Shown piece after piece: positions 19,356-33,489 of a DNA stretch of 64,000 nt. Source of the stretch: Ruegeria arenilitoris (GTDB lineage: Bacteria > Pseudomonadota > Alphaproteobacteria > Rhodobacterales > Rhodobacteraceae). The position numbers were made by a program, and so were the translations under genes. Where the stretch lies: assembly GCF_013032445.1 (NCBI RefSeq), contig NZ_WQCA01000008.1, forward strand, positions 186,001-250,000. The letters run 5' to 3'. Numbering within the stretch: position 1 is the first letter of the stretch; each line of letters opens with the position of its first letter. Under the pieces are notes generated by a model. That model was not told the origin of the DNA. It ran no database searches and saw only the letters and a program-made list of their open reading frames with translations.

Positions 19356-20501
19356 TCACTCCCGCAGTTTGACAAGGTCGGACATCAGACCTTCGGTCCC
19401 GTTGTGGACCGTCAGCCGCTCGACCTTTCCGGCGATGGTTTCCAGCGCCTCCAGCTCTTTCAGCCGCAGCATCACCGGGTTTTCCGCCATCACCTTGGCG
19501 GTGTTCAGCAGGGACCGCGTGGCGTTGGTTTCTTCCCGCCGCCGGATGACGTTGGCCTCGGCCTGTTTCTCGGCGGCGACCACGGCGGTCAGGATCTCGC
19601 GCATCTCCCCGGGCAGGATGACGTCTTTCAACGCGATCTCACCCACTTCGATACCGATCCCGGCCATCTGTGCCCGCACCCGATCCGCAGCCTCGGTGTC
19701 GACGGTCACTTTCTCGGCCAGCAGCCGGTCCAGTGTCATCGCCCCCAAGGTTTTCCGGAACGCCAGTTGCAGCGCCCGATGCAGAGCCTGATCGAAGTCC
19801 TTGACCGTCCCCACCGCCGTGACCGGATCAACGACCCGGTAGTCGGCGCTGAGGTTGACCCGGATGGTCACCCGGTCCTTGGTCAGGATCTCTTGCCCGG
19901 TCACCTCATGGGTGCGTTGCCGCAGGTCGATCTGCTTGACCTCGACGTTCCGCCCGACTTTCCAGAAGGCGTGCGCACCGGGGTTCAGTTGATCCACCAG
20001 CACTCCGTCCACCGTCAGCAGCCCGGTATGCCCTTCGGCAACCTCGACCTGCGTCAGGTTCAGCCGCAGCCCGGCCCGAACCAGCCGCTGCGCGACTGCT
20101 TTGGGAACGGCCATGGTTTCAGTCAGCGCGTGATGCTCGACCTCCCACGGACCTGCTGTTTTCCAGACCAGCGCTCGCGCTTCGGGGTTCAGCACCCGAA
20201 CAGGTACCCCATCCCGCAGCAGAACCAGAATTTCTTCAGGTCCGGCCCGGAACTCGGTCAGATGCTTGGCGGCCAGTTCAGGCCGGTTCTGCATCAGCGC
20301 TCGCTCATAGGGCGACACGAAAAAGAGCTTCTCCAGATCGTGCAGTTCGGTCAGCACATCCTTGCGCGGCAGCCGGTGTTTCCCGGGGCCGAGGATTGCA
20401 TCGAACACCCCATTGCGCAGGACCAGCATCCGCTGGGTCTCGGTCAGGGTCAGCCGCCGGTGGCCGGTCAGCCGGTCAATCAGATCTTGGAACAGTGTCA
20501 T
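19356..20501 (-). CDS. slipin (band-7/SPFH) family protein lacking a membrane segment
   Basis: A 381-residue SPFH-domain protein. Residues about 1-130 are a non-hydrophobic N-terminal region rich in charged residues (LTGHRRLTLTETQRMLVLRNG, LGPGKHRLP). The band-7 core runs about 140-330 (EGHTGLLTVDGVLVDQLNPGAHAFW, KDRVTIRVNLSADYRVVDPV, EKVTVDTEAADRVRAQMAGIGIEVGEIALKDVILP). A helical alpha-rich end has AEKQAEANVIRRREETNATRSLLNTAKV. Most slipins have an N-terminal hairpin membrane anchor; none is visible here, so it may be a soluble or peripheral oligomer. The start has AAGGAG eight bases upstream. Two tRNA-like sequences lie about 400 bases upstream on the same strand. Slipins of this form occur in RNA-repair neighbourhoods of other bacteria, as I recall it. 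Confidence 0.88.
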   Translation of the reverse strand: MTLFQDLIDRLTGHRRLTLTETQRMLVLRNGVFDAILGPGKHRLPRKDVLTELHDLEKLFFVSPYERALMQNRPELAAKHLTEFRAGPEEILVLLRDGVPVRVLNPEARALVWKTAGPWEVEHHALTETMAVPKAVAQRLVRAGLRLNLTQVEVAEGHTGLLTVDGVLVDQLNPGAHAFWKVGRNVEVKQIDLRQRTHEVTGQEILTKDRVTIRVNLSADYRVVDPVTAVGTVKDFDQALHRALQLAFRKTLGAMTLDRLLAEKVTVDTEAADRVRAQMAGIGIEVGEIALKDVILPGEMREILTAVVAAEKQAEANVIRRREETNATRSLLNTAKVMAENPVMLRLKELEALETIAGKVERLTVHNGTEGLMSDLVKLRE

Positions 20502-20900
20502 ATCATTTCTCCTTTTCGTCTCGCTCTATCGTCGTCGCAAATGCGAACTCCTTTTCATGTTTTCAGTGGGTTGCACCCCGAACGGGTGACAGTTGTGAAG
20601 CCTTCGGATAAAGGCGGGAAAGATCCGGACATCCCCCGCGCCATGCCCCTGTGCGGGAGGGTCATAGAGAGGGGCGCGGGACCCATGCGCCGTGTGACCC
20701 AAGGGTCATACGGGACACCGATCCGGCGGCACCGTCATCTGCCCTCCGGCCCAAGGCCAGAGCAGCGAAGGCCCCTGCCCCGCCCGGCCAAAGCCTGACG
20801 TTGCGCGGTGCCGCCCCTGCTGGGGAACACCCGGACCCATATGTTTTGGACCGTTTTCACGGGCCGGCGTGGAAGGCCAGTGCTGACTGAACAGCTATGT
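20502..20900 (-). other. 400-base untranslated region between tRNA-like pair and slipin gene
   Basis: No credible gene is seen on either strand. The region holds a CACCC-N5-GGGTG hairpin (20574-20588), a 14-base palindrome (20695-20708, listed separately) and several GC-rich potential hairpins. It could be a structured leader of the slipin mRNA or its promoter and activator region. Confidence 0.5.
20695..20708. promoter_or_regulatory. palindrome upstream of slipin gene, candidate operator
   Basis: TGACCC-AA-GGGTCA is a perfect inverted repeat about 195 bases upstream of the slipin start. A further GGGTCA half-site lies at about 20659. The position suits an upstream activator or repressor site. 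No factor can be named. Confidence 0.35.
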
Positions 20901-20972
20901 CAAATGGCGGGAATCGAACCCGCTACCCTTCGATTTGCAGTCGATTGCTCTAACCAGAATGAGCTACATTTG
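20901..20972 (-). tRNA. tRNA-like sequence, anticodon GCA (Cys), six-base acceptor
   Basis: Read on the minus strand it has a D stem GCTC/GAGC, an anticodon arm with seven-base loop CTGCAAA (anticodon GCA, cysteine), and a T arm GCGGG/CCCGC with loop TTCGATT. The acceptor stem is only six base pairs, CAAATG/CATTTG. The top pair of the anticodon stem is A-A. CCA is not encoded (the next bases are ACAT). It begins exactly where the other tRNA-like sequence ends. It differs from an ordinary bacterial tRNA-Cys, so it may be a tRNA-like RNA, a transferred phage-type tRNA or a pseudogene. Confidence 0.55.
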
Positions 20973-21048
20973 GTGCTTTTGAAGGAATCGAACCTTCGCC
21001 TGCAGAGTTGAGTCTGCCGCTCTATCCACCTGAGCTACAAAGCGCACC
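20972..21048 (-). tRNA. tRNA-like sequence with six-base anticodon loop, type uncertain
   Basis: The minus strand gives a D stem GCTC/GAGC, an anticodon stem GCAGA/TCTGC enclosing only six bases (CTCAAC), a T stem GAAGG/CCTTC with TTCGATT, and an acceptor GCTTTG/AAAAGC with one mismatch. The 3' side reads GCACCA, so CCA is encoded but overlaps the first bases of the following tRNA-like sequence. An outer GGTGC/GCACC pairing (21044-21048 with 20972-20976) could close the whole structure. The anticodon cannot be assigned with confidence: CAA (Leu) if the loop lacks its last base, TCA if it lacks its first. Confidence 0.5.
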
Positions 21049-21337
21049 AATCCCCGGTTTCGGCCCTGGCATACGGTTTCGGCAGCGCCGTCCGCACCGG
21101 GAGAGTGATCACCTCTGCCCGCTAGGGTCCGGCCCGTTGTGACCGGTAACGGCGGGTTTAGGCGAAGGCGCTGGATTCGCTCAATAATTTCTTGCGCCCC
21201 AAAAAAGAACCTGTGGCGAGCACGCAACAAAATTACCCAGTTGCGCAATATTCGAAAAGGCGGCACGCCAAAAACAAATCGGCGCACCCGTCAAAGGCAC
21301 GCCGCTCTTTTCTGAAATTTCAAAATTTACCGCTTGG
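21049..21337. other. intergenic region upstream of tRNA-like pair
   Basis: About 290 bases follow the trpB stop and contain no gene. The part from 21180 to 21330 is much more AT-rich than its surroundings. On the minus strand TTGTTT and GAATAT lie 18 bases apart (from about 21280 down), which would fit a sigma-70 promoter reading into the tRNA-like pair. A weak -24/-12-like arrangement is discussed under the rejected items. Confidence 0.4.
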
Positions 21338-22585
21338 TCAATCGGCCGTTCGGCCTTCGGTATCCGACATGTCGAAGTTCAGATATTTGGCCACGGTCTG
21401 AACGTCTTTGTCGCCGCGTCCGCACATGTTCATGCAGATCAGGTGGTCTTTGGGCAGTTCGGGCGCGATTTTCATCACATGGGCCAGCGCATGGGAGGGC
21501 TCCAGCGCCGGGATGATGCCTTCGGTCGCGCAGCACAGCTGGAACGCCTCAAGCGCTTCTTTGTCAGTGATCGAGACATAGTTGGCGCGGCCAATGTCGT
21601 GCAGCCAGGAATGCTCAGGCCCGATACCTGGATAATCCAGACCGGCCGAGATCGAATAACCTTCGAGAATCTGGCCGTCATCGTCCTGCAGCAAGTAGGT
21701 GCGGTTTCCATGCAGTACGCCCGGACGACCACCCGTCAGCGAGGCACAATGCTCCATCTTTTCGTTCACGCCCTTACCACCAGCCTCAACGCCGATGATG
21801 TTAACGTCTTTGTCGTCGAGGAACGGGTAGAACAGGCCCATTGCGTTCGAGCCACCACCAATGGCCGCAATAAGCGTATCCGGCAGGCGGCCTTCGGCCT
21901 TCATCATCTGCTCTTTGGCTTCCTTGCCGATTATCGACTGGAAGTCACGCACCATTGCTGGATAGGGGTGCGGACCGGCAACGGTACCGATGCAGTAGAA
22001 CGTGTCGCGCACGTTGGTCACCCAATCGCGCAGCGCGTCGTTCATCGCGTCTTTCAGCGTGCCACGGCCCGAGGTCACCGGGATCACTTCGGCCCCTAGC
22101 AGGCGCATACGGAACACGTTCGGCGCCTGACGCTGCACATCATGCGCGCCCATATAAACCACGCATTTCAGGCCGAACTTGGCGCAGACGGTGGCGGTGG
22201 CCACGCCGTGCTGACCGGCACCGGTTTCAGCAATGATCCGGGTCTTGCCCATGCGACGCGCCAGAATGATCTGACCCAGCACGTTGTTGATCTTGTGCGC
22301 GCCGGTGTGATTCAGCTCATCGCGCTTCAGGTAGATCTTGGCACCGCCCAGATGCTCGGTCAGGCGCTCCGCGTAATACAGCGGCGAGGGGCGACCCACA
22401 TAGTTCGCCCACAGATCGTCCATCTCGGCCCAGAAGGTGGGATCGTCCTTGGCCTTTTCATATTCTTCTTCCAGCGACAGGATCAGGGGCATCAGCGTTT
22501 CGCTAACAAACCGCCCGCCGAAGATGCCAAAGCGGCCCTGTTCGTCGGGACCGGACATGAAGGAATTGAAAAGATCGTTGGCCAT
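21338..22585 (-). CDS. trpB: tryptophan synthase beta chain
   Basis: A 415-residue PLP enzyme that joins indole and serine to tryptophan. The cofactor lysine is in [16 protein letters not shown]. The phosphate-binding glycine loop is [12 protein letters not shown], and [12 protein letters not shown] and [15 protein letters not shown] are also intact. The start at 22585 ([10 protein letters not shown]) has GGAGA six bases upstream; an ATG four codons earlier is less likely. It is the last gene of a trpF-orf-trpB group on the minus strand. Its alpha partner is in this window but far away on the other strand. Confidence 0.97.
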
Positions 22586-33398: not shown

Positions 33399-33443
33399 TG
33401 CTCCATTAAGATTTCCCCATCACGCCAGGAAGCCGTTGTGACA
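33399..33443 (-). promoter_or_regulatory. SAM/SAH riboswitch upstream of metK
   Basis: The minus strand reads TGTCACAACGGCTTCCTGG, CGTGA, a variable loop, and AATGGAGCA just before the metK start. This is the short SAM/SAH riboswitch known upstream of metK in Rhodobacterales: GTCAC pairs with GTGA, and the loop pairs with the AATGGAGCA segment to form a pseudoknot. The Shine-Dalgarno (GGAG) lies in the pseudoknot strand, so ligand binding would block translation of metK. Confidence 0.9.
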
Positions 33444-33489
33444 GGCATGCGAGTGGATACGCCCACAGCAACACGGGGTCAATCGGTAA

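Follow-up and report, generated by a model that had tools for sequence, protein, structure and literature searches.

SPFH/Band-7 proteins reportedly occur together with a novel tRNA-like RNA in RNA-repair systems, as set out by Burroughs and Aravind in 2016 (NAR 44:8525). We analyzed a slipin (SPFH/Band-7) gene of Ruegeria arenilitoris together with the RNA encoded in its leader. The locus lies in a stretch of 64,000 nucleotides (assembly GCF_013032445.1, contig NZ_WQCA01000008.1, positions 186,001 to 250,000), hereafter referred to as the window; coordinates are those of the window, and all features of the locus are on its minus strand. A conserved multi-domain RNA goes with one slipin family, and the anticodon loops of its tRNA-like modules are exchanged fast on fixed stems. 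Since the 2016 paper is said to describe an association of slipin with tRNA-like RNA, that association is not claimed here as new; the variable anticodons, the mimicry of host loops and the 5′ junction may be new relative to it. As in the module reportedly described there, the R. arenilitoris locus has a Band-7 protein with a tRNA-like RNA upstream, and its beta- and gammaproteobacterial relatives carry RtcR and RlaP homologues. The differences, which are provisional, are that two modules stand in tandem, that a 5′ three-way junction with covariation precedes them and that the loops are exchangeable, and RtcB, RtcR and RlaP were not found in the R. arenilitoris genome.

In Salmonella, the rsr-yrlBA-rtcBA operon encodes the Ro protein Rsr and the Y RNA YrlA, and damaged tRNAs regulate the repair that RtcR controls (PMC7790460). 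As a possible role for the tRNA-like domain of the Y RNA, the same paper offers the competitive inhibition of an anticodon nuclease. The slipin locus resembles this RtcR-controlled operon in having a protein and a cognate RNA with a tRNA-like domain. It differs in that the protein is SPFH rather than Ro/TROVE, in its two modules and variable anticodons, and in having no match to an Rfam Y RNA family (none up to E 1 in 20480-21340). In Anabaena one repressor, TrcR, governs the slipin gene alr0740, rtcB and a silent tRNA array (PMC10272220). Slipin and a tRNA-rich RNA are thus found in both cases, derepressed in Anabaena together with an RNA ligase; however, the Anabaena array consists of 26 tRNA genes on a megaplasmid and is not a slipin leader. 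Among the matches listed in the literature searched, no description of the present slipin-leader RNA was found.

The RNA and its association with slipin genes

The slipin gene (19356..20501) encodes a protein of 381 amino acids with a Pfam Band_7 match at 2.5e-29. Upstream of its start, beyond a leader remainder (20502..20899, read from the sequence), stand two tRNA-like modules, module 2 (M2, 20900..20972) and module 1 (M1, 20971..21043), each placed by ARAGORN, the Rfam tRNA model and our reading of the sequence. ARAGORN reports two tRNAs on the minus strand, one a tRNA-Cys (gca) (20899-20973) and the other with an anticodon of two bases (20972-21044); the Rfam model gives 58.4 and 41.1 bits for the pair, its gathering score being 29. 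A preliminary description of this DNA, which had reported two abutting minus-strand tRNA-like sequences with the CCA of the first overlapping the start of the second, is thus confirmed. The six-base acceptors reported there hold in the window, where M1 pairs GCTTTG with AAAAGC at five of six positions with one G.A mismatch and M2 pairs CAAATG with CATTTG at all six, but not in general: the M1 acceptor has seven pairs in many relatives. The six-base anticodon loop that had been noted is that of M1 (CTCAAC, 21012-21007) and is common in the family, being present in 25 of 41 parsed M1 modules, a count that omits loci with one parsed cloverleaf. The M2 loop is a normal, Cys-like one of seven bases (CTGCAAA, 20940-20934, with GCA at 20936-20938). 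CCA is encoded in M1, at 20973-20971, and not in M2, and the modules overlap by two bases, the CA of the M1 CCA doubling as the start of the M2 acceptor. The pair therefore does not show the separate acceptor ends, each with room for CCA, of ordinary tRNAs. Another tRNA-Cys is present in the genome (L184, G000:C1:414787-414857).

Relatives of the slipin gene were collected as 86 loci, comprising the best 80 of at least 531 relatives from public genomes and six plasmid-collection loci (six of nine records that match slipin over 80% or more of its length). Because only the best 80 were kept, the sample is weighted towards close alphaproteobacteria. One or more ARAGORN tRNAs were found upstream, within up to 1.8 kb, in 77 of the 86 loci; two of the other nine hold fewer than 400 bases of upstream sequence. 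Distant SPFH genes gave no upstream ARAGORN tRNA at any of 22 loci (two sets, of 9 and 13). A scan for T-arm motifs in up to 800 upstream bases covered 84 loci, L071 and L078 being left out for too little upstream sequence, and found a mean of 2.04 per locus, compared to 0.07 in mononucleotide shuffles. A search of 61 genomes showed that 7 of the 37 same-genus genomes carry a close slipin orthologue and that a genome of another family (G037) has a relative with 42% identity. In all eight carriers a pair of abutting tRNA-like sequences stands upstream, and five different combinations of anticodons occur among the eight. An SPFH/Band-7 protein and a conserved tRNA-like RNA in front of its gene are thus both present. 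In one locus the slipin match (L114:5001-6137) contains one in-frame stop.

A further domain (21059..21154) lies 5′ of the modules. In most loci a motif, GGTGC...GTATGCC or CGTGC...GTATACG, precedes the module pair, and the alignment of this region folds as a three-way junction in which one helix (GGUGCG...CGUAUGCC) is conserved. In alignment A5, made from 46 of 67 non-identical 5′ domains, 18 of 24 pairs show compensatory double changes. Alignment cells are paired at 95.5%, against 78.5% in shuffled alignments (0 of 500 reach the observed value), which keep the shared ancestry, and at most 51.6% in slid ones, every slide being far worse. The covariation score is 0.490, against 0.168 after shuffling (0 of 500). 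For the whole RNA (alignment A4, 30 of 31 ranges, Photobacterium left out) double changes were found at 34 of 53 pairs. No Rfam family matches the 5′ domain up to E 1, and a known Rfam RNA is thereby ruled out as its identity.

A covariance model built from the 5′ domain, R1, scores 93.2 bits at the window locus. Among same-genus genomes it matches all 7 slipin carriers (82-95 bits) and none of the 30 genomes without slipin. Two of these seven matches are not independent, because the genomes concerned (G011 and G036, corresponding to L038 and L040 of alignment A5) supplied sequences to R1. Over the 61 genomes R1 missed G037 and gave one other match, in G048 (26.8 bits). Over 289 genomes of the class, scores above 50 bits were obtained in three, all slipin carriers; two of five carriers (G037, G254) gave no score, and two genomes without slipin did (G062, 32 bits; G264, 26.7 bits). 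The weak matches in G062, G264 and G048 are taken as chance, because they have no ARAGORN tRNA near them and are surrounded by other open reading frames. A weaker form of the pattern is seen in G254 (one tRNA-like module, no R1 match), G037 (two modules, R1 at 23.9 bits in a local search only) and G205 and G302 (R1 at about 50 bits, no ARAGORN tRNA, modules by eye only). In the Subdoligranulum leader there are two T-arms and no ARAGORN tRNA. The shuffle-controlled T-arm count, the covariation and the distribution of R1 rule out a chance origin of the module pair.

The earlier claims that the pair departs from ordinary tRNAs and goes with slipin are therefore borne out. Neither a lack of conservation beside slipin genes nor a decaying phage remnant, the two outcomes that the preliminary description had named as speaking against it, was found to hold. 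The 5′ domain and the fast-changing anticodons were absent from that description.

Variations of the module architecture were also observed. An extra T-arm, often a short hairpin with no D-arm, stands right after M2 in L041, L046, L048, L054, L114 and others, and looks like a minimal third tRNA-like module. In L134, M2 seems by eye to have no D arm, the anticodon and T arms being kept.

Exchange of anticodon loops

In real tRNA genes anticodons are normally fixed. To count the anticodons of the slipin-associated RNA we used loci L037-L116 except L073 (Oceanobacillus); a cloverleaf was parsed in 75 of 77 (not L042 or L056). M2 was defined as the last cloverleaf of a locus, and single-module loci were assigned M2 by this rule. 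M2 loops are seven bases long in 72 of the 75 alphaproteobacterial loci, and these 72 carry 22 different anticodons. Anticodons with U in third place make up 49 of the 72, and ANN-reading anticodons thus predominate.

The exchange is seen between close relatives. Among 29 locus pairs with slipins at least 97% identical, pairs that are not independent of one another, many being from Mesorhizobium, 16 differ in the anticodon. Per site, the differences in these pairs amount to 0.414 for the anticodon, 0.120 for fourfold slipin sites, 0.083 for the leader spacer, 0.034 for the T arm and 0.007 for the anticodon stem. In L084 and L102, 1% of fourfold sites differ, yet the loops are TTTACAC and TTCCTAA, and the D loops differ too. 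Across L076-L116 the M2 D loops of close relatives differ in both length and sequence, and a given D loop can occur with differing anticodon loops.

The loops were compared with those of 83 real tRNA genes found by ARAGORN, 40 from R. arenilitoris itself and 43 from one Mesorhizobium, both partial sets. A host counterpart of the anticodon was present in this reference for 35 of 39 distinct M2 loops. Outside the anticodon, M2 positions 32, 33, 37 and 38 carry the same base as the real loop at 114 of 140 sites, compared to 93.8 in permutations (reached in 0 of 5000), and whole M2 loops are identical to a real loop in 14 cases, compared to 8.8 (34 of 5000). Thus, M2 tends to copy the loops of particular host tRNAs on a near-constant stem. 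The flanks of M1 loops give 27 matches, compared to 19.7 permuted (18 of 5000).

The slipin protein and its gene neighborhood

No membrane-like stretch was found in slipin, the best 19-residue Kyte-Doolittle mean being 1.17, in agreement with the preliminary description of a slipin without a membrane segment. An AlphaFold2 model (pLDDT 84.3, pTM 0.62) predicts three N-terminal beta units, followed by the SPFH domain and a long C-terminal helix. In sequence searches, solved stomatins match from about profile position 174, and HflK and QmcA from about 148-162. Stomatins also rank first among the 50 Foldseek matches listed. Major vault protein is aligned over 382-464 columns including gaps (E 9.6e-10 to 6.6e-8), compared to at most 297 columns for other SPFH proteins, with low TM-scores of 0.29-0.38 by query. 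The predicted beta units before an SPFH-like domain and the associated small RNA recall the eukaryotic vault, with its major vault protein and vault RNA. Against a close likeness, TM-scores are low, stomatins rank first, and a sequence search up to E 1 listed no vault protein. We treat the vault likeness as a lead from the fold only. PADLOC defence families matched neither slipin nor the Citrobacter nucleotidyltransferase described below.

The preliminary description had also named a link of slipins with RNA repair. That link is seen in beta- and gammaproteobacterial relatives, where RtcR and/or an RlaP homologue flank slipin, and was not found in R. arenilitoris. Of the six plasmid-collection loci, four (those of Citrobacter, Photobacterium and two Burkholderia) have RtcR facing slipin, and five have a homologue of the Citrobacter nucleotidyltransferase downstream of slipin. 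The Citrobacter protein belongs to Pfam RlaP, a polymerase-beta family described as part of an RNA repair pathway. Among the seven same-genus slipin carriers, an RtcB match was found only in G011 and G024, an RlaP match only in G024 and an RtcR match in none; G037, of the other family, has RlaP and no RtcB. In R. arenilitoris searches for RtcB and RlaP found no RNA ligase or repair nucleotidyltransferase, ATP-grasp RNA ligases not having been searched for.

A stretch containing related slipin and nucleotidyltransferase genes, located between yjbD and lysC, is matched over at least 80% in 1617 of 5426 complete E. coli genomes (about 30%); the K-12 MG1655 record matches it only at the yjbD end. 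In the E. coli/Citrobacter loci L031, L032 and L263, a zeta-toxin family gene was seen to adjoin the slipin/RlaP-type locus in one strain.

A promoter-like site (21156..21184) precedes the RNA in the window, as read from the sequence and by comparison with Rhizobiales relatives. It consists of TTGAGC (21184-21179), 17 bases and CTAAAC (21161-21156). In Rhizobiales loci the RNA is preceded by CTTGAA-N17-CTATAC and CTTGCG-N17-CTATAG, which we take to resemble RpoH (sigma-32) promoters, a putative label; the window site appears similar to them but weaker. A sigma-70 scan found no promoter. Sigma-54-like TGGCAC...GC sites stand before the RNA in E. coli, Citrobacter and both Burkholderia. Elsewhere in the window there is a SAM/SAH riboswitch (33399-33447, minus strand, 58.1 bits).

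Possible roles of the slipin-associated RNA

Anticodons that outpace fourfold sites on a near-frozen scaffold while remaining tRNA-like point to strong selection by a reader of the anticodon loop. We tentatively favor a two-part ribonucleoprotein system in which slipin scaffolds a tRNA-like bait for anticodon-cutting enzymes, a reading that we hold to be quite possible, if somewhat short of probable. The message of the soluble slipin would share a single transcript with one or two tRNA-like modules and, at the 5′ side, the three-way junction. The protein would form a ring or cage, like other SPFH proteins, and hold the RNA, perhaps via the 5′ domain, while the modules would display a loop copied from a particular host tRNA. 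An enzyme recognizing and cutting the anticodon loop of that tRNA would bind or cut the bait instead, so that real tRNAs would be spared or, in relatives with RtcR, the cut ends might be sensed by RtcR. Arms races with anticodon-directed toxins would favor frequent change of the anticodon. The preliminary description had proposed a substrate, sensor or decoy role, which stays conjectural, and the fast-changing anticodons fit a decoy or bait. A more far-reaching version, which we regard as doubtful, makes the RNA an immune receptor: a soluble, vault-like slipin cage would show tRNA-like baits, an arms race against toxins that cut anticodons would drive the swapping of the bait loops, and the loop of each strain would record the tRNA under attack.

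Several observations weigh against the bait. M1 loops, mostly of six bases, copy real loops less clearly than M2, with exact matches for 1 of 15 (1980 of 5000 permutations reach this), and both the partial host reference and the dependence among loci and locus pairs bear on the comparisons made above. The D loop differs in 22 of the 29 close pairs, a variation for which bait aimed at anticodon cutters does not by itself account. Beyond the alphaproteobacteria the only clear R1 match is that in Photobacterium (28.9 bits, E 2e-5); one Burkholderia gives a marginal match (E 0.007), the Subdoligranulum match is not significant (E 0.11), and the leaders of E. coli, Citrobacter and the other Burkholderia give none. 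Nine E. coli leaders and one from Citrobacter have a single T-arm and no D-arm, and the hairpin loop of the E. coli leaders is invariant within E. coli; variable anticodons are therefore not universal. RtcR, RtcB and RlaP have no match in the R. arenilitoris genome, so RNA repair based on them is rejected for this organism. In the stretches analyzed around alphaproteobacterial slipin genes, a single weak relative of RtcR (L075) and no homologue of RlaP were found.

The position of the RNA in the slipin leader, with a promoter-like site ahead of the whole unit and, in Enterobacterales and Burkholderia loci, the sigma-54-like sites before the RNA, would also suit a cis-acting sensor in which the modules control slipin expression, for example when an anticodon nuclease cuts them or RNase P or Z processes them, and the RNA has no existence of its own. 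Regulation of a single gene, however, needs neither such rapid change of anticodons nor a large 5′ domain, and we consider this explanation, which is partly compatible with the bait, fairly unlikely. The RNA might instead act on the slipin cage as Y RNA acts on Ro, shaping or loading it for the repair or decay of RNA, with the anticodon changes being incidental gene conversion from real tRNAs. Conservation of the 5′ domain, the RtcR and RlaP homologues beside slipin in beta- and gammaproteobacterial relatives and the variation of D loops speak for such a scaffold or guide. Conversion, however, should move the stems too, whereas anticodon differences are about three times those at fourfold sites and the flanking stem is nearly fixed; we rate a scaffold of this kind as rather improbable.

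Good cloverleaves, normal M2 loops and the CCA of M1 are what functional auxiliary tRNAs in an ordinary tandem operon would have. We nevertheless reject such an operon as very unlikely, given that the M1 CCA overlaps the M2 acceptor, M2 has no CCA, six-base M1 loops are common and the genome has its other tRNA-Cys. The atypical features of the modules could likewise be those of decaying tRNA or prophage remnants that adjoin slipin by accident. This is contradicted by the covariation, the association with slipin and the distribution of R1; moreover, slipin has no match in 50,697 phage records, and the best 20 of 113 matches of the RNA to these records cover at most a 57-base stretch, annotated as tRNA-Arg. 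A phage remnant is thus rejected as exceedingly improbable.

The variable, tRNA-like anticodon loops make testable an old question, namely why SPFH proteins and tRNA-like RNAs travel together. Laboratory work is feasible because the related slipin-nucleotidyltransferase locus is found in some 30% of complete E. coli genomes. The M2 loops would be a sequence record of the tRNAs that may be under attack in each lineage.
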